A stretch of 64,000 nucleotides of DNA. It comes from Lentilactobacillus laojiaonis (lineage in GTDB: Bacteria; Bacillota; Bacilli; Lactobacillales; Lactobacillaceae). Shown piece after piece: positions 10,894 through 34,463 of this stretch. The stretch spans positions 558,001 to 622,000 of the forward strand of contig NZ_CP085278.1 of assembly GCF_020616595.1 (NCBI RefSeq), read 5' to 3'. Below the pieces are notes generated by a model. That model saw only the letters and a program-made list of their open reading frames with translations, searched no databases and was not told the DNA's origin. The position numbers were made by a program, and so were the translations under genes. Each line of letters begins with the position of its first letter. Positions within the stretch are counted from its first letter, which is position 1.

Positions 10894-11681
10894 TAAATGA
10901 TAGTACAAAAAATGAAAATTTATCACCGTCAATGATAGCCTTTTATTTTATTATTTCACTAATAATTAATTCTGCTGGAAATGTTTTAACTTTGGCAACG
11001 AGTGATAAAATTCATCCGTCATTTTTAGGATCTGCTTATTGGACAGCTGCCGAAGCTAATTTGGGGATTGCTTTGCATTGGAATTTATTTTGGACATTTT
11101 TGATTTTAGGAATGCTTATTTCAGTCCTAAATGCAGTGCTAGTAGGTAAATTTAATGTTAAGCGGATTTTTGGAAACTTAATTTATATGGTTCCTTTTTC
11201 TGCTTTAATTCAAGTGTTTGAAAACTTCTTTATTGGTAAATTTTCAATTTACGGTGGTTTACCTGAAGCAAAGACACCCATGATGGTAGCTGTATATGTT
11301 TTCTTAAATTTTTTAGGAGTAGCCTTAATTGGGATTGCGATTTCGATTTACCAACGAGTTAATTTTGTATTACATCCTGCTGATGATTTAATGCAGATTT
11401 TAAGATTTAAGTATTTTAATGGTAATGCGATAATTGCTATGTGGGCATCGTATATTCCACCAACAATTATGGCAATAATCGCTTTAATGATAACTCATCA
11501 ATTTACTAATTTTGGATTAGGGACTATTTTTGCCTTCTTATTTCAAGGAACCTTTACCAGTTTAGGTGATAAGTATGTGTTCAAAAATCTAGTTCACCAG
11601 AATTTTGATGTAGGTGAAAAGAACATAAAGCCTACTCAAGCGGCTAAAGAACCCAACCAAGTGAGCAAGATACAACACTAA
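10890..11681 (+). CDS. YczE-like multi-pass membrane protein; C-terminus replaced at palindrome junction
   Basis: 263 residues with about five to six membrane segments (ISLIINSAGNVLTLATS, GIALHWNLFWTFLILG, VAVYVFLNFLGVALIG, MWASYIPPTIMAIIALM). Proteins of this kind are often annotated as sugar-specific permeases of the YczE/YitT type; transport has not been shown. Third gene of the fructokinase operon. The last 16 codons (from 11629) lie in the left arm of the giant palindrome and read the folT tail sequence in another frame, so the natural C-terminus has probably been swapped. Start ATG 10890. Confidence 0.75.
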   Translation: MVNDSTKNENLSPSMIAFYFIISLIINSAGNVLTLATSDKIHPSFLGSAYWTAAEANLGIALHWNLFWTFLILGMLISVLNAVLVGKFNVKRIFGNLIYMVPFSALIQVFENFFIGKFSIYGGLPEAKTPMMVAVYVFLNFLGVALIGIAISIYQRVNFVLHPADDLMQILRFKYFNGNAIIAMWASYIPPTIMAIIALMITHQFTNFGLGTIFAFLFQGTFTSLGDKYVFKNLVHQNFDVGEKNIKPTQAAKEPNQVSKIQH

Positions 11682-11780
11682 TAAAAAGAATCCTGCTAGT
11701 ATATATTCAACATCAAATAAAGGGGAACCTAATTTGATGTATGTGTATCTTACATTTAAATTAATTTGGAGGTGTTTCTT

Positions 11781-11975
11781 ATGGCTAAAGAAAGTAAAGC
11801 AACACGACAATACAATGGTAGTTTAGGTGGTAAGAAGACTGTGGCAACCCACGGACACGAATTTTATAAAGAAATTGGTGCAAAAGGTGGCCGTCAAACA
11901 GCCGCAACACATTCAAAAGCTTTCTATCACGATATCGCAGAAAAAGGTAACGCAGCAAAGAAAGCACGTAAATAA
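11781..11975 (+). CDS. Small KGG-motif (con-10-like) stress protein, left copy
   Basis: 64 residues, basic and glycine-rich, with the repeated motif GGKKTVATHGHEFYKEIGAKGG and a second partial repeat. Such small hydrophilic KGG proteins are annotated as general stress-induced proteins in Gram-positives; mechanism unknown. ATG at 11781 is preceded by TTGGAGGTG. Own terminator follows at 11989-12029. Identical copy at 33631-33825. Confidence 0.85.
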   Translation: MAKESKATRQYNGSLGGKKTVATHGHEFYKEIGAKGGRQTAATHSKAFYHDIAEKGNAAKKARK

Positions 11976-11988
11976 AACTGAATATAAT

Positions 11989-12029
11989 AAAAAAGGTCAT
12001 CTGTTGGAAATCAACAGATGACCTTTTTT
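11989..12029 (+). terminator. Strong terminator, 17-bp stem
   Basis: AAAAAGGTCATCTGTTG, 5-base loop, CAACAGATGACCTTTTT. The mirrored copy is at 33581-33621. The stretch 12030-12269 holds only imperfect GTGTGTAGGTTA repeats and the promoter of the acyltransferase. Confidence 0.92.
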
Positions 12030-12269
12030 GTGTGTAAGTTTTTGTGTGTAGGTTAAGAATATAAAGTTGTAGGTTAGGGATGTAAAATTGATCGGATAAA
12101 GTGAATAAATAAAATGGCAAAAAGTCTGATAATTTAAGCTTAAATATAACCAAAACTACAGAAATTTGGTATGATTTAATTGTACGATAATTAGTGATAA
12201 ATTAGTTAACCAAAACATAGTGCTTAGACTAATGGGAAAAAGAATAATATAGGTAATGGGGTGTTTTAA

Positions 12270-14219
12270 GTGAATCAAGAGTTATCACGAACAAATCAAA
12301 AAAAGCAGCAAAAGCAGGGGGCTAAGCGACGATACATAACCGGGATTGATGGATTAAGAAGTCTCGCAGTAATCGGTGTAATTGTATTTCATTTGGCACC
12401 ATCGTCACTAAAGGGAGGATTTTTGGGGGTTCCCATTTTCTTAGTATTGGCGGGATATTTGGTAACCTACTTTATGATATTAGATTGGGATAAAGATCGG
12501 TCATTACATATTGGGTCGTTTATCAAACGAAGAATTAGTCGACTATATCCAACATTAATTACTGTATTAGTGGGAACAACTGCATATATTACGTTGTTTG
12601 AACGTCAATTGCTAACTAATATTAGAGGAACTATTTTAACTAATCTCACTTTTGTATATAACTGGTTTGAAATCAATCATGGTCAATCGTATTTTGATCG
12701 AGCCATGGGTGAATCACCATTTACGCATTTATGGACATTGTCATTGGAAGGACAATTTTATATTATTTGGCCCTTCGTAATGTTAATTTTGTTAAAACTA
12801 TTTAAAAATCGAGTAATTCCAGGAATAATTTTATTTGCTGGCTCCGTAATTTCAGCTGTTGAGATGGCTTTGATCTATGATCCAGGTAATGTTAACCGAG
12901 TATATTATGGAACTGATACCCGTTTCTTCGCTTTGTTATTGGGAGCATCATTAGCTTTCTTATGGCCAATGAATCATTTATCAAATAATGTAAGTAAATC
13001 TAATCGTAGATGGTTAGATGGGATTGGCTTGTTTGCTATTGTAGCCATGGTAATTGCTTACTTTACTTTATCAGGCTCTGATACTTCAGTTTACCAATGG
13101 GGGATGTATGTATTTTCAGCAGTGGCAACATTATTAGTTGCTATGATAGTTCATCCAGCTAGTCATTGGAACGCTTGGCTTACTAATAAGTTATTTACTT
13201 ACATTGGTAAAAGAAGTTATGGAATTTATGTATATCAATTTCCAGTAATGATTTTTTATGAAAATAAAGTCAAAAGCATTGGAGATCACCCAGTGATTAA
13301 TGCAATTATTCAAATTGCAATTATCTTATTAATTAGTGAAATCAGTTACCGTTATATTGAAAAACCACTCCGTAACTTTAAATGGTCACAACTTAAAGAA
13401 AATAATGGTAAGAGTTATTTAAGTGTAAAAAATATCGCTAGATTAACTGGAGTATTTGCATTAGTAGCTTTAACTACAGTTGGATTAGTTCAACAACCTC
13501 AAAAAACTACTGGTTCATCTTTACAAAAGGTAATTAATAGCCGCAGTAAAAAGGCTAATAAAGCTAATGCTAAAGCCATCAAGTTACAGAAGCAACAAGC
13601 CAAAGCAGCAGCTGAATATTCACATAATCAAGCCTTAGAAAAACGTGAAATGCAACATTTGAGTAAAACTCAACGTGAAAATATGAAGACTTATCAATTG
13701 AGTGCGCGAGATATTGTGACATTAAAACAAACACCGCTTACTTCGGTAGGTGATTCAGTTATGATTGATGTTTCAACTAGCATTCAAGATGTATTTCCGG
13801 CCGCAACTGTTAATGGTAAAGTTGGTAGACAGGCTGCAGAAGTAATGCCAGTTCTAAATTCGTTAGAATCTAATGGTCAATTAAGTAAGAATGTCTTACT
13901 TAACATCGGAACTAATGGAACAGTTACCAAAGACCAAGTTGAAGAAATCTTAGACTTTTTAGGTAAGGATCGGGATGTTTACTGGACAACTGCTTATGTA
14001 CCAAATCGTAGTTGGCAACAACAAGTTAACTCTACTCTATATGCAGAAGCTAAGAAGCACAGTAATCTCCACATCATCGATTGGTATGGAACTGCTAAAA
14101 ATCATCCAACTAGCTGGTTTACAACTGATGGAATTCATCCAAATAATGTTGGGGTAACCCATTTTGCAGGATTAGTTGCTAAGTCAATTGCTAAGGATAA
14201 AGAGACCAATGCTAATTAG
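12270..14219 (+). CDS. oatA: OatA-like acyltransferase 3 / SGNH hydrolase, left copy
   Basis: Peptidoglycan O-acetyltransferase type protein, 649 residues. Residues 20-370 are an acyltransferase-3 domain of about ten helices (GIDGLRSLAVIGVIVFHL at the start; R/H and the EGQFYIIWP motif present). A basic linker with coiled-coil character (LEKREMQHLSKTQRENM) leads to an extracellular SGNH domain with block I VGDSV and block V DGIHPNN, carrying the catalytic Ser, Asp and His. GTG start with GGGG-type site. In Firmicutes OatA acetylates N-acetylmuramic acid and gives lysozyme resistance. Copy on the other arm is intact. Confidence 0.9.
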   Translation: MNQELSRTNQKKQQKQGAKRRYITGIDGLRSLAVIGVIVFHLAPSSLKGGFLGVPIFLVLAGYLVTYFMILDWDKDRSLHIGSFIKRRISRLYPTLITVLVGTTAYITLFERQLLTNIRGTILTNLTFVYNWFEINHGQSYFDRAMGESPFTHLWTLSLEGQFYIIWPFVMLILLKLFKNRVIPGIILFAGSVISAVEMALIYDPGNVNRVYYGTDTRFFALLLGASLAFLWPMNHLSNNVSKSNRRWLDGIGLFAIVAMVIAYFTLSGSDTSVYQWGMYVFSAVATLLVAMIVHPASHWNAWLTNKLFTYIGKRSYGIYVYQFPVMIFYENKVKSIGDHPVINAIIQIAIILLISEISYRYIEKPLRNFKWSQLKENNGKSYLSVKNIARLTGVFALVALTTVGLVQQPQKTTGSSLQKVINSRSKKANKANAKAIKLQKQQAKAAAEYSHNQALEKREMQHLSKTQRENMKTYQLSARDIVTLKQTPLTSVGDSVMIDVSTSIQDVFPAATVNGKVGRQAAEVMPVLNSLESNGQLSKNVLLNIGTNGTVTKDQVEEILDFLGKDRDVYWTTAYVPNRSWQQQVNSTLYAEAKKHSNLHIIDWYGTAKNHPTSWFTTDGIHPNNVGVTHFAGLVAKSIAKDKETNAN

Positions 14220-14224
14220 ATTAA

Positions 14225-14267
14225 AATAAAAAAAGGTATCAGCAATTTTAGCTGGTACCTTTTTTAT
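14225..14267 (+). terminator. Terminator after oatA-like gene
   Basis: AAAAAAGGTATCAGC, 7-base loop, GCTGGTACCTTTTTT with one G-U/mismatch. Confidence 0.88.
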
Positions 14268-14711
14268 TAGGTAATAATAATCATCATTTAGTTATAAAAA
14301 AATAATTAATTTATTATTACAATATTACATAATGTAATTAAAAATATAATTTTATGAATCCGTTTTATGGTTGATAAATTGGTAATTAGATAGATTTTTT
14401 TAATAGAATAAGTAAAACATTTTAAATTAGCCGATGTAAATATGATGAAATTTTTGTAATATACAGCTATTGCTTTTCAATAAATTGTTGATTTAACGGC
14501 ACTATTTAACGATAATTATGAATTTTAAATTCCAACTAAAAAATATTTAAACCTTGATTTAATAAAGATTGTTACATTTTTTTATAAAACTTATTGTAAC
14601 TATAATGTCATAGATATGATACATACAAGAAAGTAAATCTATGATAAATTTAATAGCGTCAAAAAGATGACAAGAAAATTATTGGTTTCAAATAGAAAGG
14701 AAGAAATTCTT
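14268..14711 (+). promoter_or_regulatory. Long AT-rich leader of the Apf gene with WalR-like box
   Basis: About 440 bases without a convincing gene. TGTAAC-TATAA-TGTCAT at 14595-14611 is one base off the WalR consensus (TGTWAH, 5 bases, TGTWAH) and overlaps a TATAAT -10 at 14601-14606. TCATAGAT (14608-14615) and ATCTATGA (14637-14644) form an 8-bp stem in the 5' UTR. ATTACATAATGTAAT at about 14327 is a further short dyad. WalRK control of wall hydrolases is well known, so this is plausible. Confidence 0.5.
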
Positions 14712-15422
14712 ATTTTAAGTCTAAAGAAAATTATCGTTACTAGTTCAGCATTAATGGGTACTATCCTAACAGGAGTAACTCTAGCTAGTGCAAACACTAC
14801 TTACACTGTTCAATCAGGAGATACTCTTTCAAAAATCGCAGAAAACTATGATACTACGGTTAACTCAATTGCTAACCTAAACAACATTAAAAATGTTAAT
14901 TTGATTTATGTTGGGGACCAATTAGAAATTGCTGACTCAGCAACTCAAGCTACATCAACTAACACTGCAGCTATTGCTCCTGCAACTAGCTCAGCAACTC
15001 AAACTACTTCAGCAAATACTGCTGCAAGTTCATCAGCTGCAACTACTTCAGCAAACACTACTGCAACTAGTTCAGCAAATACTAGTTCATCATCAAATAC
15101 TAGTTCATCAGCAAACACTGCTGCAACTAGCTCATCAAATACTAGTTCATCAAACAAAACTAGTTCAAGTTCATCAAACTATGGTTCAAGCTCACATGCT
15201 GACATCTTAAGTCAAATGGAACAAAGAACTGGAGTTTCAGCTTCAACTTGGAACTACATTATTAACCGTGAATCAAACTGGCAACCATACGTAAGAAACA
15301 GTAGCTCAGGTGCATATGGATTATTCCAAAACATGCACATTAGTGGTGGTTCTGTTCAAGACCAAATCGATGCTGCCGTAAGTCTTTACAACCAACAAGG
15401 TATGGCTGCTTGGGCACTATAA
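14667..15422 (+). CDS. apf: LysM + aggregation-promoting-factor/transglycosylase-like secreted hydrolase, left copy
   Basis: Secreted wall-binding protein. A signal peptide ([23 protein letters not shown]) precedes one LysM ([17 protein letters not shown]), a 90-residue Ser/Thr/Asn/Ala-rich linker, and a C-terminal lysozyme-like domain with the catalytic Glu in NRESNW and the family ending AAWAL. Apf proteins affect cell shape and aggregation in lactobacilli. The ATG at 14667 gives 251 residues, but the ribosome site AAAGGAAG (14696-14703) is inside that frame and points to the ATT at 14712, giving LSLKKIIV as the mature signal start. Right copy identical. Confidence 0.9.
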
Positions 15423-15429
15423 TTAAATA

Positions 15430-15468
15430 AAGAAAAAGTCATTTAGAGATAAGTGGCTTTTTTTATAC
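15430..15468 (+). terminator. Terminator after apf-like gene
   Basis: AAAAAGTCATTT, 7-base loop, AAGTGGCTTTTTTT; two G-U pairs in the stem. Confidence 0.75.
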
Positions 15469-15480
15469 ATAAAAGTTTTA

Positions 15481-15508
15481 TTGAAAAACTAGTAATAAAT
15501 GCTATAAT
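15481..15508 (+). promoter_or_regulatory. Promoter of the ABC-F leader
   Basis: -35 TTGAAA (15481-15486), 16-base spacer, -10 TATAAT (15503-15508). Gives a leader of about 240 nt before the ABC-F start. Confidence 0.75.
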
Positions 15509-15514
15509 TGAAAT

Positions 15515-15717
15515 AAATAAATCGGAGGTGGCTGCAAACATGAGAATCTAATCCAACTAATCATCATTTTTAAAACAATATTTTATAGTAATTCCGTATT
15601 GGGGGATGCTATTTAATAGTAATTTAGAAATGGTCTTTAAATTGGATTGGGTTAATTATGGATGTAGACCATTAATTTGACCTAATGACTTAAATATTAG
15701 GTCTTTTTTTATATAAA
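15515..15717 (+). promoter_or_regulatory. Leader-peptide attenuator of the ABC-F gene, left copy
   Basis: Starts with a consensus GGAGGTGG site (15524-15531) and a three-codon frame ATG AGA ATC TAA. AATCCAA at 15550-15556, at the end of that frame, can pair with TTGGATT at 15642-15648. ATGGTCT (15630-15636) pairs with AGACCAT (15666-15672). The leader ends in an intrinsic terminator GACCTAAT/ATTAGGTC (15679-15703) with T7, 43 bases before the coding sequence. This is the layout of antibiotic-responsive ABC-F attenuators, where a stalled ribosome on the short frame prevents terminator formation. Confidence 0.75.
15540..15551 (+). CDS. Three-codon leader peptide (Met-Arg-Ile)
   Basis: ATG AGA ATC TAA directly after the strongest ribosome binding site in the neighbourhood (GGAGGTGG, spacing 8). 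Likely a regulatory uORF rather than a functional peptide. Confidence 0.6.
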   Translation: MRI

Positions 15718-15753
15718 AATTTAAAGGCCGTTTCGTAAAAGGAGACGGTAAAT

Positions 15754-17136
15754 ATGGCATATCAATTAAGAGAGTTACAGGCAAATTATGCTGGTAGACA
15801 AATTTATGATATTGATAAAATAATCATACCAGAAGGTAAAGTAATTGGTTTGATTGGAGTAAATGGTGCTGGTAAGACTACGCTAATTAAAGAACTTAAG
15901 AACAGAGAAAAGCAAATTCGACCTAAGGCAGTGGTGGAACTATTACCACAGCTAAAACCTGATGAAGATATTAGTGGAGGTCAGCAAGTACAAGAGTATA
16001 TAAATAATGCATTTAGACGACCATCTAACATATTATTGTTAGACGAACCAACCGCCAACTTAGATCTTAATCATCTAAATAAATTAAAATATCAGTTAAA
16101 ATACTATCCGGGAACAGTAATCATCATTTCTCATGATCGGGACTTTTTAGATGGGGTAGTTGATGAAATATGGGAATTACAGGATGGCGAGCTGCAGACA
16201 TTTACAGGCAATTATACTGAATTTGTTGATTATAAGACGAATCAACGCGATCAACAAGCAAAAGATTACCAAACCTATAGGAATAAGCAAAAACAGCTAC
16301 AAAGGGCTTTAAATAAGAAAAAACAGCAAGCTAGCCGAGCTACTAAGGTACCTAAAAAATATCAAGGTACTAATGAAGCTAAAAATATGAAGCAACATTA
16401 TAAAGATCAGCAAGGAAAACTTAGCAAGGATACAGCTGCACTTAAAAGTAGATTGCAGCGAACGACGGGTGTCGATAAACCTAAAGAAAGTAAGCCTATT
16501 AAATTTAACTTACCCGGAATGGATAATTTAAAGCAATCCACCCTACTAACTGTTAATAATTTAACTGTCAAAAGGGATGAGAATATTTTAATTGATGAGG
16601 TTAACTTAAAAATAAAAGCGGGCCAAAATATTGCGGTAATCGGTGAAAATGGGACCGGCAAAACTACTTTACTAGATATGATTTATCACGCCTACAAGCA
16701 AAATAATGATGCTAAAATCATTGCCTCACCTAAATTAAAACTAGGCTATTTTCATCAGCAACTTACGCAACTAGATACTACTAAATCTATTTTAGATACA
16801 GTAAATGAACTATCGATTCAAGATAATTCCATTAACCAGACCGTTTTGGCAAATTTAGGTTTTGATAGAGCGGACTTTCATAAATTGGTTCAAGTATTAA
16901 GTGGAGGGGAACGGGTTAAATTGGCCTTGGCTAGGTTAATGGTTAGTGATATAAATGTTTTAATGTTAGATGAACCTACTAATTATTTAGATATCGTTAC
17001 CGTAACCGAATTAGAAAAGATGCTAATAGACTATCCAGGAACCGTAATATTGGTAAGTCATGACCAACAATTAGTTGATCATGTTAGTGATTTTGTTTAT
17101 GAGATTCAAGCTAAACAATTTAATCAAGTAAAATAA
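15754..17136 (+). CDS. ABC-F ribosome-protection-type ATPase, left copy
   Basis: Soluble protein with two ABC domains and no membrane part, 460 residues. Domain 1: Walker A GVNGAGKTT near residue 33, signature SGGQQ near 74, LLLDEPTANLDL near 95. A charged linker of about 80 residues (the P-site-tRNA interaction motif region, rich in KKKQQ) follows. Domain 2: GENGTGKTT near 298, LSGGERVKLALARLM near 386, LMLDEPTNYLD near 408. Such ARE ABC-F proteins (Vga/Lsa/Vml type) remove lincosamide, streptogramin A or pleuromutilin drugs from the ribosome. Its attenuated leader supports that role; the exact drug is unknown. Confidence 0.9.
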   Translation: MAYQLRELQANYAGRQIYDIDKIIIPEGKVIGLIGVNGAGKTTLIKELKNREKQIRPKAVVELLPQLKPDEDISGGQQVQEYINNAFRRPSNILLLDEPTANLDLNHLNKLKYQLKYYPGTVIIISHDRDFLDGVVDEIWELQDGELQTFTGNYTEFVDYKTNQRDQQAKDYQTYRNKQKQLQRALNKKKQQASRATKVPKKYQGTNEAKNMKQHYKDQQGKLSKDTAALKSRLQRTTGVDKPKESKPIKFNLPGMDNLKQSTLLTVNNLTVKRDENILIDEVNLKIKAGQNIAVIGENGTGKTTLLDMIYHAYKQNNDAKIIASPKLKLGYFHQQLTQLDTTKSILDTVNELSIQDNSINQTVLANLGFDRADFHKLVQVLSGGERVKLALARLMVSDINVLMLDEPTNYLDIVTVTELEKMLIDYPGTVILVSHDQQLVDHVSDFVYEIQAKQFNQVK

Positions 17137-17156
17137 AAAAGCCCTAGGGCTTTTTT
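17135..17156. terminator. Bidirectional terminator
   Basis: A6 GCCC TAGGGC T6 with a minimal loop; shared by the convergent ABC-F and tetR genes. Confidence 0.85.
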
Positions 17157-17760
17157 ATTTTTCGTTAGAAAATGCCAAAATGGATGGTAGAGTAACCTCT
17201 CTAACGATTTTTTCAATTACTGGTATGGTAACATCACTGTCTAAAGTCCATGAATTATATCTTAGTAAATCAAAATAAGCTAGTTTAACAGTCTCGCTGG
17301 GGAGCCCTTTAATTTCATGCTTGCTAATGGCTAATTGTAAAATATAATCCATAATTTTTAAATTAGCGGTTCTCGAATACGCAATGATCTTTTTTAATTG
17401 AATATTTTGGGATGAATTAGCAATTCCAAACAAGATTTTAAAATGGTGATTAGCTCCGCGGGTAGATTGCTTAATAAATTCTTTGCCAACGAACATTAAA
17501 TTTTTTTCCAATGATCCTAAATCGAACTCTAGACTAGTTAATACGTTATTAGAAATTTTGATTTCGTATAAAATAGTTTCTAAAACTAGATCAAATAATT
17601 GGTCCCAATATCGATAGAGTACAGATCTACTGGTATGAGCCTGCTTAGCAATTTTGGAAAAATTAATGTGGTTATAGCCATCTTTTTCTAATAAATAATA
17701 GGTTGCTTCATATATTTGAATTTGTAACGTGTCGCCACGTCTTCTGGTATCTTTTTGCAT
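17155..17760 (-). CDS. TetR/AcrR-family regulator, left copy
   Basis: 201 residues from the ATG at 17760, which follows AGGAGTGATAAAATC; a longer upstream reading lacks a ribosome site. The N-terminal helix-turn-helix is INFSKIAKQAHTSRSVLYRYW at residues 28-48. The ligand domain is not close to a family I can name. Divergent from the NADH-oxidase-like gene; direct copies of TGTATCTTA at about 17837 and 17879 in the shared promoter are likely binding sites, so it probably represses that gene. Intact copy at 27845-28450. Confidence 0.88.
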   Translation of the reverse strand: MQKDTRRRGDTLQIQIYEATYYLLEKDGYNHINFSKIAKQAHTSRSVLYRYWDQLFDLVLETILYEIKISNNVLTSLEFDLGSLEKNLMFVGKEFIKQSTRGANHHFKILFGIANSSQNIQLKKIIAYSRTANLKIMDYILQLAISKHEIKGLPSETVKLAYFDLLRYNSWTLDSDVTIPVIEKIVREVTLPSILAFSNEK

Positions 17761-17923
17761 GATTTTATCACTCCTGATAGTTATGGTTAGATACGAACTA
17801 ATTAAAAGTGTACCGTAAAATAGGTAGAAAACAAAGTGTATCTTAATTATAATATTAATCATCATATTAAATACAATATGTATCTTATTAGTTGGATCAG
17901 ATTATAATTAAGGAGATTTAAAT
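17761..17923. promoter_or_regulatory. Divergent promoter tetR / flavoprotein
   Basis: Contains two direct TGTATCTTA copies 42 bases apart (about 17837 and 17879) and an ATTAAT-rich dyad between them. Probable TetR-family operator region. Confidence 0.5.
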
Positions 17924-19267
17924 ATGAAAGTTATTGTAATTGGTGGCTCACACGGTGGTTATGAATCGGTTGAAACAATCTATGAAACTATGCCTAAGAA
18001 TACTGTGGTTAATTGGTATGATCAAGGTGACCTAGATTTAGTAGTTAATTGGAGTAAAGAACGAGTTGATGATGCTAAAGATGTTAGGCATATGACTAAT
18101 GAAGCTTTAAATAAAAATCATATCAATTTGTTTAGCTTGAGTAAGGTAATTAATATCGATGCTTCAAAACATTGTATTATTGCTAAAAATTTAGTTACCG
18201 ATGAAGAAATAGTTGATTATTATGATAAATTAATTATCGCAACTGGATCTGATGCTAATAAATTAAGAATTCCTGGAACCAATCTTGATAGAGTAATGAC
18301 CATGCGCGGGAAGGTTGGAATTAATAAGGTTAAACAACAATTGCATAATGCGCAAATTAAGAATGTAATTATTGTTGGTGGAGGATATATTGGAATAATG
18401 GCAGCCAATATGTTTAGCCAAGCTGGCAAACAGGTAACTCTAATTAATGGTAGTCAGCAAATATTAGATAATTATCTAGATGATGATTTTATTGAGATAC
18501 TAATGAATGATTTAAAAAATCATCAAGTTGATTTAGAATTATCGCAACAAGTTATCAGAATTAATGGTGATACCACCGTGGCATCAGTAGAGACTAATAA
18601 AGGTGAGTATTTGGCAGACATGGTTCTATTAGCAGTTGGCAACAAGCCTAACACTGAGTGGCTAGATGGAATTGTTAAACTAAATTCTAAGAAGTTAATT
18701 GAGGTTGATGAATATATGCATACGGATCTTGAAGATGTTTTTGCTGTTGGGGATGCAACCGAAGTTAGATTTACGCCGACTAATGAAATGAAAAATATCG
18801 CTTTAGCTAGCAATGCTCAAAGACAAGCTAAAACTGCAGTAGCTAACTTGAATTCTAACTTACAGCCATTTTATGGAGTACAAGGCACTAGTGGGTTGGT
18901 ATTATTTGATAAAGTTTTTGCCACTACAGGAGTTAACTCTAAAATGATTGAATCAGCTGAGTTACCTATAAGTAGTGTTTTAGTAACTTATGATAATCTA
19001 ATGGATAATGTTCCCGATAGTTTTAGAACTCAAATTCGATTTAAGCTATTTTATAGCAATGTTGATCACACTATTAAAGGAGCTCAGATTTTGGCTGATA
19101 AGGACTTTAATGAAATAATTAACACTATTTCAGTTGCCATCCAAATGAGAATGACTATTGAGCAGTTAGCATATGCTGATTTTTATTTTCAACCTCAGTT
19201 AACTAACGAATGGAATATTATGAATATTGCGGCACAGAAAGCGTTAAAAAAGACATCGAATGATTAA
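17924..19267 (+). CDS. NADH oxidase/peroxidase-family flavoprotein lacking the redox cysteine, left copy
   Basis: FAD- and NAD-binding oxidoreductase of the class III disulfide-reductase family (Nox/Npx/CoADR), 447 residues. FAD motif IGGSHGGYESVE at residues 6-17, NAD motif IVGGGYIGIMAANMF near 148, FAD motif DVFAVGDATEV near 270, and the C-terminal dimerisation domain. The redox-active cysteine (Cys42 in FLSCG of the family) is absent: the segment reads LVVNWS. The only cysteine is in SKHCIIA. It may still oxidise NADH with oxygen through the flavin, but not by the cysteine-sulfenate mechanism. Divergent from tetR; terminator overlaps its end. Confidence 0.88.
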   Translation: MKVIVIGGSHGGYESVETIYETMPKNTVVNWYDQGDLDLVVNWSKERVDDAKDVRHMTNEALNKNHINLFSLSKVINIDASKHCIIAKNLVTDEEIVDYYDKLIIATGSDANKLRIPGTNLDRVMTMRGKVGINKVKQQLHNAQIKNVIIVGGGYIGIMAANMFSQAGKQVTLINGSQQILDNYLDDDFIEILMNDLKNHQVDLELSQQVIRINGDTTVASVETNKGEYLADMVLLAVGNKPNTEWLDGIVKLNSKKLIEVDEYMHTDLEDVFAVGDATEVRFTPTNEMKNIALASNAQRQAKTAVANLNSNLQPFYGVQGTSGLVLFDKVFATTGVNSKMIESAELPISSVLVTYDNLMDNVPDSFRTQIRFKLFYSNVDHTIKGAQILADKDFNEIINTISVAIQMRMTIEQLAYADFYFQPQLTNEWNIMNIAAQKALKKTSND

Positions 19268-19281
19268 TCGATGTCTTTTTT
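19246..19281. terminator. Bidirectional terminator overlapping gene ends
   Basis: AAAAAAGACATCGA, 8-base loop, TCGATGTCTTTTTT. Lies over the last codons of both the flavoprotein gene and the convergent merR gene. Confidence 0.85.
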
Positions 19282-19733
19282 ATGATTAACTTGCTGGGAT
19301 GCTAAATATTGTTTGCGCCATTTAGGATTAACTTGATGTGTTCCAGGGATGTAGAAAATGCTCTCGGTCCCCGCCTCATTAGCGTGTTGATAATACCATT
19401 TTTTCCATCTAAGAAAGCCAGCTGTGTTTCTAATTCGTGAATTTTGTTTTCTAAAATTTTTTCTTGTTGGATCATAAAATCATAGCGTTGAGGTAACGTA
19501 TTATCGCCCTCCATACACCAATTCATAAATTTAGCGATTTCTTTAATGGGGATTCCTGACTTTTTTAAGCAATTAATGACTTCAATATATCCTAAATCAT
19601 TATCATTAAATTGGCGACGACCACCAGCATCTCTTTTAATAAAAGGCATTAAGCCAGCTTTATCGTAGTATCTAATGGTATCTTGAGAAACATTGTATTT
19701 CTGAGAAATATCACTCATAGTATAATTTGCCAA
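19264..19733 (-). pseudogene. MerR-family regulator, left copy, frame shifted by a missing T
   Basis: Activator of the MerR family; N-terminal helix-turn-helix YTMSDISQKYNVSQDTIRYYDKAGL, then a coiled coil LENKIHELETQLAF. In this arm a run of three T (near 19415, bottom strand GGCTTTC) should be four; the right arm has four. Restoring it gives the expected C-terminus LRWKKWYYQHANEAG ... KKDID with stop at 19264. As written the frame ends at 19302 after an unrelated tail. No cysteine set for metals; it resembles the MerR proteins paired with SDR or aldo-keto enzymes. Divergent from the SDR gene, with a classical MerR operator between. Confidence 0.85.
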
Positions 19734-25770: not shown

Positions 25771-25862
25771 AATATATTTTCCTTCTTTCATTTATATGTT
25801 ATCTTACCATATCACCTGGAGTTAACTCCAGGTCAAATATTATTAATGAAGAGGATACTAAT

Positions 25863-26332
25863 TTGGCAAATTATACTATGAGTGATATTTCTCAGAAATA
25901 CAATGTTTCTCAAGATACCATTAGATACTACGATAAAGCTGGCTTAATGCCTTTTATTAAAGAGATGCTGGTGGTCGTCGCCAATTTAATGATAATGATT
26001 TAGGATATATTGAAGTCATTAATTGCTTAAAAAAGTCAGGAATCCCCATTAAAGAAATCGCTAAATTTATGAATTGGTGTATGGAGGGCGATAATACGTT
26101 ACCTCAACGCTATGATTTATGATCCAACAAGAAAAAATTTAGAAAACAAAATTCACGAATTAGAAACACAGCTGGCTTTTCTTAGATGGAAAAAAATGGT
26201 ATTATCAACACGCTAATGAGGCGGGGACCGAGAGCATTTTCTACATCCCTGGAACACATCAAGTTAATCCTAAATGGCGCAAACAATATTTTAGCATCCC
26301 AGCAAGTTAATCATAAAAAAGACATCGATTAA
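25863..26332 (+). pseudogene. MerR regulator, right copy, frameshifted
   Basis: Mirror of 19264-19733. Has the correct T4 before the CTTAGATGG codons (so the natural C-terminus is readable) but an extra A in the following run and other indels. The two arms together give one whole MerR protein. Confidence 0.82.
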
Positions 26333-27680
26333 TCATTCGATGTCTTTTTTAACGCTTTCTGTGCCGCAATATTCATAATATTCCATTCGTTAGTTAACTG
26401 AGGTTGAAAATAAAAATCAGCATATGCTAACTGCTCAATAGTCCATTCTCATTTGGATGGCACCTGAAAATAGTGTTAATTATTTCATTAAAGTCCTTAT
26501 CAGCCAAAATCTGAGCTCCTTTAATAGTGTGATCAACCATTGCTATAAAATAGCTTAAATCGAATTTGAGTTCTAAAACTATCGGGAACATTATCCATTA
26601 GATTATCATAAGTTACTAAAACACTACTTATAGGTAACTCAGCTGATTCAATCATTTTAGAGTTAACTCCTGTAGTGGCAAAAACTTTATCAAATAATAC
26701 CAACCCACTAGTGCCTTGTACTCCATAAAATGGCTGTAAGTTAGAATTTCAAGTTAGCTACTGCAGTTTTAGCTTGTCTTTGAGCATTGCTAGCTAAAGC
26801 GATATTTTTCATTTCATTAGTCGGCGTAAATCTAACTTCGGTTGCATCCCCAACAAGCAAAAAACATCTTCAAGATCCGTATGCATATATTCATCAACCC
26901 TCAATTAACTATCTTAGAATTTAGTGTAACAATTCCAATCTAGCCACTCAGTGTTAGGCCTTGTTGCCAACTGCTAATAGAACCATGTCTGCCAAATACT
27001 CACCTTTATTAGTCTCTACTGATGCCACGGTGGTATCACCATTAATTCTGATAACTTGTTGCGATAATTCTAAATCAACTTGATGATTTTTAAATCATTC
27101 ATTAGTATCTCAATAAAATCATCATCTAGATAATTATCTAATATTTGCTGACTACCATTAATTAGAGTTACCTGTTGCCAGCTTGGCTAAACATATTGGC
27201 TGCCATTATTCCAATATATCCTCCACCAACAATAATTACATTCTTAATTTGCGCATTATGCAATTGTTGTTTAACCTTATTAATTCCAACCTTCCCGCGC
27301 ATGGTCATTACTCTATCAAGATTGGTTCCAGGAATTCTTAATTTATTAGCATCAGATCCAGTTGCGATAATTAATTTATCATAATAATCAACTATTTCTT
27401 CATCGGTAACTAAATTTTTAGCAATAATACAATGTTTTGAAGCATCGATATTAATTACCTTACTCAAGCTAAACAAATTGATATGATTTTTATTTAAAGC
27501 TTCATTAGTCATATGCCTAACATCTTTAGCATCATCAACTCGTTCTTTACTCCAATTAACTACTAAATCTAGGTCACCTTGATCATACCAATTAACCACA
27601 GTATTCTTAGGCATAGTTTCATAGATTGTTTCAACCGATTCATAACCACCGTGTGAGCCACCAATTACAATAACTTTCAT
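26329..27680 (-). pseudogene. NADH-oxidase-like flavoprotein, right copy, frameshifted
   Basis: Mirror of the intact 17924-19267. Only the first 168 residues are in frame (27168-27680); an A missing near 27177 and at least ten further indels break the rest. Confidence 0.85.
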
Positions 27681-27844
27681 ATTTAAATCTCCTTAATTAT
27701 AATCTGATCCAACTAATAAGATACATATTGTATTTAATATGATGATTAATATTATAATTAAGATACACTTTTGTTTTCTACCTATTTTACGGTACACTTT
27801 TAATTAGTTCGTATCTAACCATAACTATCAGGAGTGATAAAATC

Positions 27845-28450
27845 ATGCAAAAAGATACCAGAAGACGTGGCGACACGTTACAAATTCAAATATATGAAGC
27901 AACCTATTATTTATTAGAAAAAGATGGCTATAACCACATTAATTTTTCCAAAATTGCTAAGCAGGCTCATACCAGTAGATCTGTACTCTATCGATATTGG
28001 GACCAATTATTTGATCTAGTTTTAGAAACTATTTTATACGAAATCAAAATTTCTAATAACGTATTAACTAGTCTAGAGTTCGATTTAGGATCATTGGAAA
28101 AAAATTTAATGTTCGTTGGCAAAGAATTTATTAAGCAATCTACCCGCGGAGCTAATCACCATTTTAAAATCTTGTTTGGAATTGCTAATTCATCCCAAAA
28201 TATTCAATTAAAAAAGATCATTGCGTATTCGAGAACCGCTAATTTAAAAATTATGGATTATATTTTACAATTAGCCATTAGCAAGCATGAAATTAAAGGG
28301 CTCCCCAGCGAGACTGTTAAACTAGCTTATTTTGATTTACTAAGATATAATTCATGGACTTTAGACAGTGATGTTACCATACCAGTAATTGAAAAAATCG
28401 TTAGAGAGGTTACTCTACCATCCATTTTGGCATTTTCTAACGAAAAATAA
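27845..28450 (+). CDS. TetR/AcrR-family regulator, right copy (intact)
   Basis: Protein identical to that of 17155-17760, 201 residues, ATG after AGGAGTGATAAAATC. See the left copy for domains. Confidence 0.88.
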   Translation: MQKDTRRRGDTLQIQIYEATYYLLEKDGYNHINFSKIAKQAHTSRSVLYRYWDQLFDLVLETILYEIKISNNVLTSLEFDLGSLEKNLMFVGKEFIKQSTRGANHHFKILFGIANSSQNIQLKKIIAYSRTANLKIMDYILQLAISKHEIKGLPSETVKLAYFDLLRYNSWTLDSDVTIPVIEKIVREVTLPSILAFSNEK

Positions 28451-28468
28451 AAAAGCCCTAGGGCTTTT

Positions 28469-29852
28469 TTATTTTACTTGATTAAATTGTTTAGCTTGAA
28501 TCTCATAAACAAAATCACTAACATGATCAACTAATTGTTGGTCATGACTTACCAATATTACGGTTCCTGGATAGTCTATTAGCATCTTTTCTAATTCGGT
28601 TACGGTAACGATATCTAAATAATTAGTAGGTTCATCTAACATTAAAACATTTATATCACTAACCATTAACCTAGCCAAGGCCAATTTAACCCGTTCCCCT
28701 CCACTTAATACTTGAACCAATTTATGAAAGTCCGCTCTATCAAAACCTAAATTTGCCAAAACGGTCTGGTTAATGGAATTATCTTGAATCGATAGTTCAT
28801 TTACTGTATCTAAAATAGATTTAGTAGTATCTAGTTGCGTAAGTTGCTGATGAAAATAGCCTAGTTTTAATTTAGGTGAGGCAATGATTTTAGCATCATT
28901 ATTTTGCTTGTAGGCGTGATAAATCATATCTAGTAAAGTAGTTTTGCCGGTCCCATTTTCACCGATTACCGCAATATTTTGGCCCGCTTTTATTTTTAAG
29001 TTAACCTCATCAATTAAAATATTCTCATCCCTTTTGACAGTTAAATTATTAACAGTTAGTAGGGTGGATTGCTTTAAATTATCCATTCCGGGTAAGTTAA
29101 ATTTAATAGGCTTACTTTCTTTAGGTTTATCGACACCCGTCGTTCGCTGCAATCTACTTTTAAGTGCAGCTGTATCCTTGCTAAGTTTTCCTTGCTGATC
29201 TTTATAATGTTGCTTCATATTTTTAGCTTCATTAGTACCTTGATATTTTTTAGGTACCTTAGTAGCTCGGCTAGCTTGCTGTTTTTTTCTTATTTAAAGC
29301 CCTTTGTAGCTGTTTTTGCTTATTCCTATAGGTTTGGTAATCTTTTGCTTGTTGATCGCGTTGATTCGTCTTATAATCAACAAATTCAGTATAATTGCCT
29401 GTAAATGTCTGCAGCTCGCCATCCTGTAATTCCCATATTTCATCAACTACCCCATCTAAAAAGTCCCGATCATGAGAAATGATGATTACTGTTCCCGGAT
29501 AGTATTTTAACTGATATTTTAATTTATTTAGATGATTAAGATCTAAGTTGGCGGTTGGTTCGTCTAACAATAATATGTTAGATGGTCGTCTAAATGCATT
29601 ATTTATATACTCTTGTACTTGCTGACCTCCACTAATATCTTCATCAGGTTTTAGCTGTGGTAATAGTTCCACCACTGCCTTAGGTCGAATTTGCTTTTCT
29701 CTGTTCTTAAGTTCTTTAATTAGCGTAGTCTTACCAGCACCATTTACTCCAATCAAACCAATTACTTTACCTTCTGGTATGATTATTTTATCAATATCAT
29801 AAATTTGTCTACCAGCATAATTTGCCTGTAACTCTCTTAATTGATATGCCAT
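28469..29852 (-). pseudogene. ABC-F ATPase, right copy, one extra A
   Basis: Mirror of 15754-17136. A run of six A in the left copy is seven here (29282-29288), splitting the protein into residues 1-190 and an internal-ATG piece carrying the second ATPase domain. No other difference is apparent in the frames, which fits a homopolymer sequencing error. Confidence 0.85.
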
Positions 29853-29894
29853 ATTTACCGTCTCCTTTTACGAAACGGCCTTTAAATTTTTATA

Positions 29895-30097
29895 TAAAAA
29901 AAGACCTAATATTTAAGTCATTAGGTCAAATTAATGGTCTACATCCATAATTAACCCAATCCAATTTAAAGACCATTTCTAAATTACTATTAAATAGCAT
30001 CCCCCAATACGGAATTACTATAAAATATTGTTTTAAAAATGATGATTAGTTGGATTAGATTCTCATGTTTGCAGCCACCTCCGATTTATTTATTTCA
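29895..30097 (-). promoter_or_regulatory. ABC-F leader attenuator, right copy
   Basis: Mirror of 15515-15717 including the three-codon frame (30055-30066, bottom strand) and the terminator at 29895-29928. Confidence 0.72.
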
Positions 30098-30183
30098 ATT
30101 ATAGCATTTATTACTAGTTTTTCAATAAAACTTTTATGTATAAAAAAAGCCACTTATCTCTAAATGACTTTTTCTTTATTTAA

Positions 30184-30939
30184 TTATAGTGCCCAAGCAG
30201 CCATACCTTGTTGGTTGTAAAGACTTACGGCAGCATCGATTTGGTCTTGAACAGAACCACCACTAATGTGCATGTTTTGGAATAATCCATATGCACCTGA
30301 GCTACTGTTTCTTACGTATGGTTGCCAGTTTGATTCACGGTTAATAATGTAGTTCCAAGTTGAAGCTGAAACTCCAGTTCTTTGTTCCATTTGACTTAAG
30401 ATGTCAGCATGTGAGCTTGAACCATAGTTTGATGAACTTGAACTAGTTTTGTTTGATGAACTAGTATTTGATGAGCTAGTTGCAGCAGTGTTTGCTGATG
30501 AACTAGTATTTGATGATGAACTAGTATTTGCTGAACTAGTTGCAGTAGTGTTTGCTGAAGTAGTTGCAGCTGATGAACTTGCAGCAGTATTTGCTGAAGT
30601 AGTTTGAGTTGCTGAGCTAGTTGCAGGAGCAATAGCTGCAGTGTTAGTTGATGTAGCTTGAGTTGCTGAGTCAGCAATTTCTAATTGGTCCCCAACATAA
30701 ATCAAATTAACATTTTTAATGTTGTTTAGGTTAGCAATTGAGTTAACCGTAGTATCATAGTTTTCTGCGATTTTTGAAAGAGTATCTCCTGATTGAACAG
30801 TGTAAGTAGTGTTTGCACTAGCTAGAGTTACTCCTGTTAGGATAGTACCCATTAATGCTGAACTAGTAACGATAATTTTCTTTAGACTTAAAATAAGAAT
30901 TTCTTCCTTTCTATTTGAAACCAATAATTTTCTTGTCAT
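30184..30939 (-). CDS. apf: LysM/Apf secreted hydrolase, right copy (intact)
   Basis: Protein identical to 14667-15422. The same unusual start arrangement (ribosome site inside the longest frame, pointing to an ATT codon) is present. The 30940-31386 stretch mirrors the left leader and holds no gene. Confidence 0.88.
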
Positions 30940-31386
30940 CTTTTTGACGCTATTAAATTTATCATAGATTTACTTTCTTGTATGTATCATATCTATGACA
31001 TTATAGTTACAATAAGTTTTATAAAAAAATGTAACAATCTTTATTAAATCAAGGTTTAAATATTTTTTAGTTGGAATTTAAAATTCATAATTATCGTTAA
31101 ATAGTGCCGTTAAATCAACAATTTATTGAAAAGCAATAGCTGTATATTACAAAAATTTCATCATATTTACATCGGCTAATTTAAAATGTTTTACTTATTC
31201 TATTAAAAAAATCTATCTAATTACCAATTTATCAACCATAAAACGGATTCATAAAATTATATTTTTAATTACATTATGTAATATTGTAATAATAAATTAA
31301 TTATTTTTTTATAACTAAATGATGATTATTATTACCTAATAAAAAAGGTACCAGCTAAAATTGCTGATACCTTTTTTTATTTTAAT

Positions 31387-33336
31387 CTAATTAGCATTGG
31401 TCTCTTTATCCTTAGCAATTGACTTAGCAACTAATCCTGCAAAATGGGTTACCCCAACATTATTTGGATGAATTCCATCAGTTGTAAACCAGCTAGTTGG
31501 ATGATTTTTAGCAGTTCCATACCAATCGATGATGTGGAGATTACTGTGCTTCTTAGCTTCTGCATATAGAGTAGAGTTAACTTGTTGTTGCCAACTACGA
31601 TTTGGTACATAAGCAGTTGTCCAGTAAACATCCCGATCCTTACCTAAAAAGTCTAAGATTTCTTCAACTTGGTCTTTGGTAACTGTTCCATTAGTTCCGA
31701 TGTTAAGTAAGACATTCTTACTTAATTGACCATTAGATTCTAACGAATTTAGAACTGGCATTACTTCTGCAGCCTGTCTACCAACTTTACCATTAACAGT
31801 TGCGGCCGGAAATACATCTTGAATGCTAGTTGAAACATCAATCATAACTGAATCACCTACCGAAGTAAGCGGTGTTTGTTTTAATGTCACAATATCTCGC
31901 GCACTCAATTGATAAGTCTTCATATTTTCACGTTGAGTTTTACTCAAATGTTGCATTTCACGTTTTTCTAAGGCTTGATTATGTGAATATTCAGCTGCTG
32001 CTTTGGCTTGTTGCTTCTGTAACTTGATGGCTTTAGCATTAGCTTTATTAGCCTTTTTACTGCGGCTATTAATTACCTTTTGTAAAGATGAACCAGTAGT
32101 TTTTTGAGGTTGTTGAACTAATCCAACTGTAGTTAAAGCTACTAATGCAAATACTCCAGTTAATCTAGCGATATTTTTTACACTTAAATAACTCTTACCA
32201 TTATTTTCTTTAAGTTGTGACCATTTAAAGTTACGGAGTGGTTTTTCAATATAACGGTAACTGATTTCACTAATTAATAAGATAATTGCAATTTGAATAA
32301 TTGCATTAATCACTGGGTGATCTCCAATGCTTTTGACTTTATTTTCATAAAAAATCATTACTGGAAATTGATATACATAAATTCCATAACTTCTTTTACC
32401 AATGTAAGTAAATAACTTATTAGTAAGCCAAGCGTTCCAATGACTAGCTGGATGAACTATCATAGCAACTAATAATGTTGCCACTGCTGAAAATACATAC
32501 ATCCCCCATTGGTAAACTGAAGTATCAGAGCCTGATAAAGTAAAGTAAGCAATTACCATGGCTACAATAGCAAACAAGCCAATCCCATCTAACCATCTAC
32601 GATTAGATTTACTTACATTATTTGATAAATGATTCATTGGCCATAAGAAAGCTAATGATGCTCCCAATAACAAAGCGAAGAAACGGGTATCAGTTCCATA
32701 ATATACTCGGTTAACATTACCTGGATCATAGATCAAAGCCATCTCAACAGCTGAAATTACGGAGCCAGCAAATAAAATTATTCCTGGAATTACTCGATTT
32801 TTAAATAGTTTTAACAAAATTAACATTACGAAGGGCCAAATAATATAAAATTGTCCTTCCAATGACAATGTCCATAAATGCGTAAATGGTGATTCACCCA
32901 TGGCTCGATCAAAATACGATTGACCATGATTGATTTCAAACCAGTTATATACAAAAGTGAGATTAGTTAAAATAGTTCCTCTAATATTAGTTAGCAATTG
33001 ACGTTCAAACAACGTAATATATGCAGTTGTTCCCACTAATACAGTAATTAATGTTGGATATAGTCGACTAATTCTTCGTTTGATAAACGACCCAATATGT
33101 AATGACCGATCTTTATCCCAATCTAATATCATAAAGTAGGTTACCAAATATCCCGCCAATACTAAGAAAATGGGAACCCCCAAAAATCCTCCCTTTAGTG
33201 ACGATGGTGCCAAATGAAATACAATTACACCGATTACTGCGAGACTTCTTAATCCATCAATCCCGGTTATGTATCGTCGCTTAGCCCCCTGCTTTTGCTG
33301 CTTTTTTTGATTTGTTCGTGATAACTCTTGATTCAC
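31387..33336 (-). CDS. oatA: OatA-like acyltransferase, right copy (intact)
   Basis: Protein identical to 12270-14219, 649 residues, GTG start. Confidence 0.9.
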   Translation of the reverse strand: MNQELSRTNQKKQQKQGAKRRYITGIDGLRSLAVIGVIVFHLAPSSLKGGFLGVPIFLVLAGYLVTYFMILDWDKDRSLHIGSFIKRRISRLYPTLITVLVGTTAYITLFERQLLTNIRGTILTNLTFVYNWFEINHGQSYFDRAMGESPFTHLWTLSLEGQFYIIWPFVMLILLKLFKNRVIPGIILFAGSVISAVEMALIYDPGNVNRVYYGTDTRFFALLLGASLAFLWPMNHLSNNVSKSNRRWLDGIGLFAIVAMVIAYFTLSGSDTSVYQWGMYVFSAVATLLVAMIVHPASHWNAWLTNKLFTYIGKRSYGIYVYQFPVMIFYENKVKSIGDHPVINAIIQIAIILLISEISYRYIEKPLRNFKWSQLKENNGKSYLSVKNIARLTGVFALVALTTVGLVQQPQKTTGSSLQKVINSRSKKANKANAKAIKLQKQQAKAAAEYSHNQALEKREMQHLSKTQRENMKTYQLSARDIVTLKQTPLTSVGDSVMIDVSTSIQDVFPAATVNGKVGRQAAEVMPVLNSLESNGQLSKNVLLNIGTNGTVTKDQVEEILDFLGKDRDVYWTTAYVPNRSWQQQVNSTLYAEAKKHSNLHIIDWYGTAKNHPTSWFTTDGIHPNNVGVTHFAGLVAKSIAKDKETNAN

Positions 33337-33630
33337 TTAAAACACCCCATTACCTATATTATTCTTTTTCCCATTAGTCTAAGCACTATGTTTTGGTTAA
33401 CTAATTTATCACTAATTATCGTACAATTAAATCATACCAAATTTCTGTAGTTTTGGTTATATTTAAGCTTAAATTATCAGACTTTTTGCCATTTTATTTA
33501 TTCACTTTATCCGATCAATTTTACATCCCTAACCTACAACTTTATATTCTTAACCTACACACAAAAACTTACACACAAAAAAGGTCATCTGTTGATTTCC
33601 AACAGATGACCTTTTTTATTATATTCAGTT

Positions 33631-33825
33631 TTATTTACGTGCTTTCTTTGCTGCGTTACCTTTTTCTGCGATATCGTGATAGAAAGCTTTTGAATGTGTT
33701 GCGGCTGTTTGACGGCCACCTTTTGCACCAATTTCTTTATAAAATTCGTGTCCGTGGGTTGCCACAGTCTTCTTACCACCTAAACTACCATTGTATTGTC
33801 GTGTTGCTTTACTTTCTTTAGCCAT
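33631..33825 (-). CDS. Small KGG-motif stress protein, right copy
   Basis: Identical to 11781-11975. It follows folT on the same strand, about 120 bases after its stop; I infer this is the parental order. Confidence 0.85.
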   Translation of the reverse strand: MAKESKATRQYNGSLGGKKTVATHGHEFYKEIGAKGGRQTAATHSKAFYHDIAEKGNAAKKARK

Positions 33826-33941
33826 AAGAAACACCTCCAAATTAATTTAAATGTAAGATACACATACATCAAATTAGGTTCCCCTTTATTTGATGTTGAA
33901 TATATACTAGCAGGATTCTTTTTATTAGTGTTGTATCTTGC

Positions 33942-34463
33942 TCACTTGGTTGGGTTCTTTAGCCGCTTGAGTAGGCTAGAATTTAATAATAAATAAATTA
34001 AAATTATTTGAATGGGGGTAGTTATTAACTGTTTAACTAGTCTCATTGGAAATAATGCAGTAAATGGTGTATAGTACAAAATATTTACCCACCAAGTATT
34101 TAGGAAGGCATTAACAAATAATGAAATTAATACCTGAGCTAAAATAACTCTAATCCAAGTAATTCTATGATTATAGAAAAACAAGCTATATATTAATGCT
34201 CCTACAATTGCTGATATAGTAAATCCTGGAAAATACGGTACTCCTTGAATCAAGGTACCGACTATATCCAGCACTGCAGCAATTGATACTGACCAAACCA
34301 TACCGTAGCAATAACTAATTACCGCGGTTACTAAAAAGACTAAGTTAAATTGAATTAACTGATTTCCTAAATTTATCTGATTTAGAATTAACTCCATTCC
34401 CATTAAAATCCCTAAAATAACTATATCCTGAGTTTTTAATTGATTTTTTTTGAAACCGATCAT
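33942..34463 (-). CDS. folT: Folate ECF transporter S component
   Basis: Substrate-binding membrane subunit of the folate ECF transporter, about 173 residues with five to six helices (LGILMGMELILNQI, LVFLVTAVISYCYG, ISAIVGALIYSLFF, VILAQVLISLFVNAFLN, IQIILIYLLLN). Works with the shared EcfT/EcfA module encoded elsewhere. The start is the ATG at 34463; an in-frame ATG at 34472 is inside the AAGGAG site region. A THF riboswitch precedes it. Its last 12 codons, SLLKRLKNPTK and the stop, lie in the palindrome arm; that tail reads as a natural FolT C-terminus. Confidence 0.9.
   Translation of the reverse strand: MIGFKKNQLKTQDIVILGILMGMELILNQINLGNQLIQFNLVFLVTAVISYCYGMVWSVSIAAVLDIVGTLIQGVPYFPGFTISAIVGALIYSLFFYNHRITWIRVILAQVLISLFVNAFLNTWWVNILYYTPFTALFPMRLVKQLITTPIQIILIYLLLNSSLLKRLKNPTK

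Follow-up and report, generated by a model that had tools for sequence, protein, structure and literature searches.

A spacer-less palindrome at the replication terminus of Lentilactobacillus laojiaonis, read as the hairpin ends of a probable linear chromosome

The chromosomes of lactic acid bacteria are taken to be circles, and no linear chromosome of the Lactobacillaceae was described in the literature searched, most subscription journals lying outside that search. Here we analyze a 64,000-bp stretch of Lentilactobacillus laojiaonis (the window; positions 558001 to 622000 of the 1,242,019-bp contig NZ_CP085278.1, in a genome of 88.8% completeness), which carries a 22-kb palindrome without a spacer. 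Together with the absence of dif and of tyrosine recombinases, this palindrome suggests that the chromosome is probably linear, with 11.2-kb terminal inverted repeats and hairpin ends, and that it was falsely closed in the assembly by read-through of these ends.

Hairpin-telomere replicons of Borrelia and Agrobacterium have ResT/TelA resolvases, which sets them apart from L. laojiaonis, where no match to PF16684 was found in the genome. In Borrelia, palindromes at the contig ends of PacBio and nanopore assemblies have been used to find the telomeres (PMC6945570), but the terminal repeats are described as very short (PMC2459194). The linear chromosome of Agrobacterium tumefaciens is reported to be without dif (Carnoy and Roten, PMC2731167). 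Linear replicons are also described in the Lactobacillales, among them the megaplasmid pLMP1046 of Ligilactobacillus salivarius (PMC4165912) and the enterococcal pELF1, whose left end was assembled as identical facing 5-kb repeats and is read as a hairpin, with short-read depth lowest at the centre, and whose right end is protein-bound (PMC6863802). The Lactobacillus johnsonii plasmid NZ_CP040855.1, with a spacer-less palindrome at each end, is similar in form. These are, however, plasmids and not chromosomes.

Among described cases, the one closest to ours in combining long terminal repeats with hairpins is 'Candidatus Phytoplasma mali', a Bacillota-type lineage with a small linear chromosome, long terminal inverted repeats and covalently closed hairpin ends (PMC2459194). 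There, the ends were proven by renaturation and Southern blots, in another class and with repeats near 43 kb (PMC2459194), whereas the present evidence is sequence. By place and family, the nearest case on the same kind of comparison is the terminus repeat of Lactobacillus delbrueckii ssp. bulgaricus, also large, inverted and bordered by different flanks, but described with spacers of 1 to 8.8 kb, with dif inside the repeat and in a chromosome taken as circular (PMC5345009). The palindrome of L. laojiaonis shares with it the position at the replication terminus; its spacer is 0, dif was found neither in the repeat nor in the genome, and no tyrosine recombinase is encoded.

The palindrome and its place in the chromosome

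Self-comparison of the window gave a single inverted match, of 11629-33977 onto itself, with the best centre of symmetry at 22792/22793 and a spacer of 0. This bears out the preliminary description, which had been made from the window alone and had reported a 22-kb spacer-less palindrome with different flanks. The length of the palindrome excludes a chance origin. Its outer flanks are two different unique sequences, with a gene that we take to be yczE on the left and folT on the right (Table 1). A simple fold-back read would be expected to place the same flank on both sides, so the earlier argument that such a read alone would not yield this structure holds. The suspicion that a spacer-less palindrome raises in a circular bacterial chromosome was also justified.

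A minimal-edit alignment of the two arms revealed 85 insertion or deletion (indel) events, of which 83 are of one base and 2 of two bases, and 4 substitutions. The earlier wording of scattered single-base differences therefore needs correction: nearly all are indels, and all but two lie within 4.5 kb of the axis, with one at 4.5 to 5 kb and one at 6 to 6.5 kb, and the outer ~4.7 kb of the arms are identical. Since diverged gene copies would show mainly substitutions, we take the indels to be sequencing errors or consensus noise, probably left in places of sparse, ambiguous or low-quality reads. Nanopore reads are known to be called poorly past an inverted-duplicate junction (PMC7229812), and the platform used here may differ. 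The zero spacer and the decay of the consensus toward the axis were together counted in favor of read-through of a hairpin. A zero-spacer axis is what is expected of covalently closed ends, without being proof of them.

The contig was closed as a circle in the assembly, as indicated by a reading frame, which we take to be walK, that crosses from the contig end into the contig start unbroken. The gene at contig positions 14939-16264 is presumably dnaA, from its sequence and neighbors. GC skew is positive from this origin region to the palindrome and negative beyond it, in bins of up to 20 kb over 1,116,000 of the 1,242,019 bases (about 90% of the contig, namely the parts outside 426001-438000 and 1122001-1236019). 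This change of sign places the axis at the replication terminus, so that a spacer-less palindrome through the putative tip is found at the far end from the origin, as in a hairpin telomere. Apart from the palindrome, the same 1,116,000 bases contain a single near-identical long repeat, a unit of ~5 kb that occurs at five places and presumably represents the rRNA operons.

Loss of dif and of tyrosine recombinases

The dif site was searched for with a pattern representing it. Exactly one site was found in 22 of 23 congeners, in each case past folT on its 3' side at a distance of 1,340 to 7,763 bp, and none in L. laojiaonis; the only congener without a match was G020 (86% complete). The best local match in the ~90% of the L. 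laojiaonis genome covered has 20 of 28 bases, compared with 21 of 28 for a reversed control. No protein with the tyrosine recombinase domain PF00589 was found in the whole genome. At least four were matched in each of the 23 congeners and at least one in 394 of 397 genomes of the family, the three exceptions being L. laojiaonis, G273 (76% complete) and G173, a Bombilactobacillus (100% complete).

Comparison of gene order with Lentilactobacillus senioris showed how these functions are missing. Over ~187 kb, 126 of 131 L. senioris frames (≥100 residues) were matched in unbroken order, and in the following 40 kb the order is mostly kept as well. The five frames without a match are xerC, thyA, a gene of 555 residues, xerD and a gene of 102 residues, where xerC, xerD and thyA are presumptive names given on sequence, with the positions of PF00589 as a further guide for the two xer genes. 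Both xer genes are absent from separate, otherwise intact loci, and no remnant of either was found at the expected places. In L. senioris, folT, the 555-residue gene, dif and gntP follow in succession; in L. laojiaonis, the palindrome, together with a further 10.4 kb of genes, stands between folT and gntP. Loss of the terminus in an assembly gap was considered and rejected, given the unbroken order up to gntP and folT, and is also ruled out by the clean absence of xerC and xerD elsewhere. Judged from this gene order, dif and the two xer genes, each at its own locus, were lost in evolution and not through an assembly gap.

Topoisomerase IV and an FtsK frame are retained. The latter, near contig positions 458100-461300, encodes 696 residues; in the 814-residue L. 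senioris protein, residues 219-348 are without a counterpart in it, and the part that matches residues 349-812 is 82% identical. The gap left by thyA, presumably the gene for thymidylate synthase, lies at contig positions 635875/635890, outside the window.

The absence of dif from the terminus agrees with a linear chromosome, though it is not specific to one. According to Carnoy and Roten, dif is dispensable in linearised Escherichia coli, in addition to being absent from the linear chromosome of A. tumefaciens (PMC2731167). In the terminus regions of six dif-bearing congeners (30 to 35 kb each), no inverted repeat of ≥200 bp was found.

Comparable ends in Bombilactobacillus and on a linear plasmid

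The dif pattern was found in three of seven genomes of another genus and not in G173, G099, G150 and G195. The genus is Bombilactobacillus, as shown by 8,001 bases of a small G150 contig that are identical to record NZ_CP093367.1 of Bombilactobacillus folatiphilus. In the three dif-bearing genomes, PF00589 was matched with E values of 2e-43 to 6e-54; in the four others it was either unmatched or matched more weakly (best E 8e-27 to 2e-17), from which we infer that XerC and XerD are gone in these four.

Two of these genomes, G150 and G195, have the same architecture as L. laojiaonis. The chromosome of G150 has a 30.6-kb spacer-less palindrome at 796025-826660, with 100% identical arms of 15,318 bp, at the skew switch. 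The single contig of G195 (1,494,436 bp) folds back round an axis at either end, and its first 20 kb are the reverse complement of its last 20 kb at 99.97%. G173 has two contigs with an axis at an end, and G099 showed no palindrome in the first 10 kb of one contig, the only part examined. The association of dif loss with a palindrome was thus observed in three genomes (L. laojiaonis, G150 and G195) and partly in G173, set against the six congeners without a palindrome.

The plasmid NZ_CP040855.1 of L. johnsonii G2A, recorded as linear, begins and ends with a fold-back palindrome that has no spacer, at 1-24021 and at 97124-127062. These read-through palindromes double the listed terminal genes, and the unique part between the axes is ~100 kb. 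A further candidate, a small contig of G150 (NZ_CP093367.1, Bombilactobacillus folatiphilus, 15,159 bp), was set aside as a linear plasmid, since all of it matches the end of the G150 chromosome at 100% identity. Its sequence corresponds to the terminal repeat plus ~1 kb read round the tip, so that it is probably not a plasmid, and it was not counted as a separate telomere.

Six distinct ends (two of L. johnsonii, one each of G150 and G195, and two of G173) share the tip TAGCYCATAG and a GTNTCATTTTGACAC-like box near bases 25-39 from the axis. When each was left out of the profile in turn, they scored 32.6 to 47.1. Conservation of a tip across separate loci, replicons and two genera argues for a site-specific telomere, and not for fold-back repair or random artefacts.

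Junctions, gene content and competing explanations

The two outer junctions differ in kind. The final 36 bp of folT fall within the repeat and finish a product of 176 residues, compared with 180-181 in two relatives. This gene reads into the right arm, which for that reason looks native. The yczE homologue of L. senioris ends in DVGEDQ, whereas in L. laojiaonis the gene's own sequence stops at the boundary and continues in a foreign frame. From this contrast, the left repeat is probably a copy that replaced the original left end by a process akin to telomere exchange or break-induced replication. The stretch of 10.4 kb from gntP to the palindrome (1275-11628) contains genes from elsewhere, including fruK and yczE, which in L. 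senioris adjoin mnmG near the origin.

TABLE 1 Positions of the palindrome, its genes and the related module (window coordinates unless a locus is named)
Feature	Position	Strand	Length	Remarks
Left arm	11629..22792		11,164 bp	Proposed left terminal inverted repeat, tip at 22792
Right arm	22793..33977		11,185 bp	Proposed right terminal inverted repeat, tip at 22793; native copy, by folT end
Axis	22772..22813		21 bp per side	Perfect spacer-less palindrome; proposed pair of hairpin tips (replicated telomere)
Inner 4.5 kb on either side of axis	18293..27292			87 of 89 arm differences (poor consensus)
Box GTGTATTTTATTACAC	22817..22832	+		25-40 from axis, mirrored in left arm; resemblance only
oatA-like acyltransferase gene (PF01757)	12270..14219	+		Right-arm copy 31387-33336
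apf-like LysM protein gene	14667..15422	+		Copy 30184-30939
ABC-F ATPase gene	15754..17136	+		Copy 28469-29852, split by one indel
Pyridine nucleotide-disulphide oxidoreductase gene	17924..19267	+		Right copy broken
B3/4-domain gene	23317..23778	-		Whole in right arm only
yczE-like membrane protein gene	10875..11681	+		Final codons enter repeat in foreign frame; novel junction 11628/11629
folT	33942..34472	-		Last 36 bp inside repeat; native junction
gntP-like permease gene	1..1274	-		10.4 kb left of palindrome; dif neighbor in L. senioris
RusA module, L. johnsonii plasmid	L185 9249-11718 and 12305-14774
RusA module, Bombilactobacillus	L165 8897-10809
RusA module, Bombilactobacillus	L178 481-2084

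The doubling of oatA, apf, the ABC-F gene and regulators, pointed out in the preliminary description, stands, and these genes are now read as subtelomeric repeats. Among frames of ≥50 residues, indels disrupt genes in both arms: the ABC-F gene, a CoA-disulfide-reductase-like gene and the MerR and MarR genes are whole only on the left, the B3/4 gene and an 86-residue frame only on the right, and an SDR frame in neither. A tetrahydrofolate riboswitch at 34497-34598 (minus strand), immediately upstream of folT, supports the name of that gene.

On the evidence assembled here, we consider it likely that this chromosome is linear, with hairpin telomeres; its physical linearity, the hairpins, the resolvase and the order of events are what we infer. 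Each end would be a covalently closed hairpin bearing one copy of the 11.2-kb terminal inverted repeat, with the tips at 22792 and 22793. Replication would run from the origin near contig base 15,000 outward to both ends, and each copied tip would form a spacer-less palindrome to be cut and resealed by some resolvase. Long reads would pass round the hairpin from one strand onto the other, giving the spacer-less palindrome, and the repeat shared by both ends would lead the assembler to link left end to right end as a false circle. The left repeat would have been copied from the right one, beginning inside the final 36 bp of folT, and would join on directly behind yczE. In a line, no chromosome dimers would arise, and dif, xerC and xerD would be dispensable and could be lost. 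The preliminary description had weighed a real internal inverted duplication against a fold-back artefact. Two real copies of the arm are retained in the linear reading, but that pair of options was incomplete; the terminus and dif locus, the loss of dif and tyrosine recombinases and the Bombilactobacillus parallels all lay outside its view.

Several observations weigh against this organization. An assembly sequence is by itself no proof of topology, and a hairpin-ended line with terminal repeats reads like a circle with a palindrome, in G150 and G195 as well. The dif pattern is also without a match in G020 and in G148, a genome strongly matched by PF00589, so that its absence alone is weak evidence, and some circular bacteria with small genomes are reported to be without dif and Xer (Carnoy and Roten, PMC2731167). 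No SbcD above the curated cut-off was found in this genome, nor in 13 of the 23 congeners, and SbcCD was therefore not used as an argument against a palindrome in a circle. The axis of L. laojiaonis starts with TTAAGTGTTAGG and not with TAGCYCATAG, the tip of the Lactobacillaceae telomere. Against a telomere profile of the first 46 bases, built from five half-sites, the right arm scored 9.0 and the left 7.1, compared with 33 to 47 for true members. Neither the ResT/TelK family (PF16684; no match in this genome, the search covering this genome and not Bombilactobacillus, and with matches in only 1 of 14 controls) nor, in the 90% of the genome examined, the RusA module described below was found.

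As to the profile scores, 4 (right arm) and 10 (left arm) of 6000 random window positions scored as high, and 3 of 3000 shuffles matched the right-arm score. The box GTGTATTTTATTACAC lies at the same distance from the axis as the GTNTCATTTTGACAC-like box of the six other ends. Sequence comparison therefore points to a weak resemblance between this axis and the shared telomere, due in part to the box, and we do not assign it to the TAGCYCATAG family.

Beside the left telomere of L. johnsonii lies a set of genes for a RusA-type junction nuclease, a helix-turn-helix protein and a third product of 228 to 317 residues, of unknown family. This module is also present on a replicon of G173 and on the chromosome of G150, and in Bombilactobacillus it may act as a resolvase. 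As a candidate resolvase in L. laojiaonis it was rejected: in the 1,116,000 of 1,242,019 bases examined, the combination of RusA, a ~315-residue protein and a helix-turn-helix protein gave a single match, with E = 0.088. The arms were also considered as a plasmid-borne duplication and this was rejected: 15500-22792 retrieved 9 of 72,556 plasmid records, with short gene-level matches only. The axis-side 508 bp matched 12 plasmid records, the best 10 of which cover ≤12%. No match to viral contigs was obtained with the axis half-site or with the Bombilactobacillus tip. The left telomere of L. johnsonii matched 137 phage records; the ten listed, from Prevotella Lak phages, are 81 to 83% identical over 40% of the query, which we read as an effect of composition.

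The competitor that survives best, which we nevertheless regard as unlikely, is a real palindrome in a circle. Once dif and Xer were lost, chromosome dimers would be severed within the terminus, at the septum, and a broken end would be rescued by fold-back synthesis or sister fusion. The position at the terminus suits this course, and El Kafsi et al. propose such a rescue in L. bulgaricus, together with an ancestral 8-bp spacer (PMC5345009). Without an SbcD above cut-off, as in 13 of the 23 congeners, the palindrome might be tolerated, and small bacteria with circles can do without dif and Xer (PMC2731167). However, fold-back priming leaves a loop, and a zero spacer requires that the loop itself be palindromic. 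Moreover, the conserved tips of Bombilactobacillus and the L. johnsonii plasmid would be unexpected from random breaks, and the repeats described for L. bulgaricus have their 1- to 8.8-kb spacers and include dif (PMC5345009).

An assembly artefact on an ordinary circle is less probable still, and we give it little credence. A fold-back or chimeric read would have produced one arm as the mirror image of the other, with a further misjoin attaching it to yczE. The mirror image at a single axis and the poor consensus over the innermost 4.5 kb on either side are as such an error would leave them, but two independent errors would be needed, together falling on the terminus and dif locus of a genome that has lost dif and, at other loci, both xer genes, and the same structure is found in two Bombilactobacillus assemblies. 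Least probable of all, and very improbable in our judgment, are open, protein-capped ends of the Streptomyces type on a linear chromosome with the same terminal repeats, the axis being joined by the assembler alone: long terminal repeats are usual with such ends in Streptomyces (PMC2459194) and an enterococcal linear plasmid is reported with one hairpin and one protein-bound end (PMC6863802), but open ends yield no sequence across the axis, nothing would set the tips base to base, and the related ends read round as palindromes.

Beyond this genome, the chances seem evenly balanced that the chromosomes of several members of the family (at least two Bombilactobacillus besides this Lentilactobacillus) were linearised at their terminus on more than one occasion, by way of hairpin telomeres of a kind that linear lactobacillus plasmids also carry, that these ends are kept by a resolving enzyme outside ResT/TelK, and that dif and XerC/XerD were lost as a result, the genomes being databased as circles with a spacer-less palindrome at the terminus. 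If true, some records would need correction, both contigs that were circularised and one chromosome end filed as a 'plasmid', and the combination of a spacer-less palindrome at the skew switch with loss of dif and Xer offers a signature for finding more. The linear reading, if true, points to a telomere-resolving enzyme, and would allow a test in nature of whether dimer resolution is dispensable to a linear chromosome. It would mean that a major family of bacteria from foods, guts and bees includes members with linear chromosomes.

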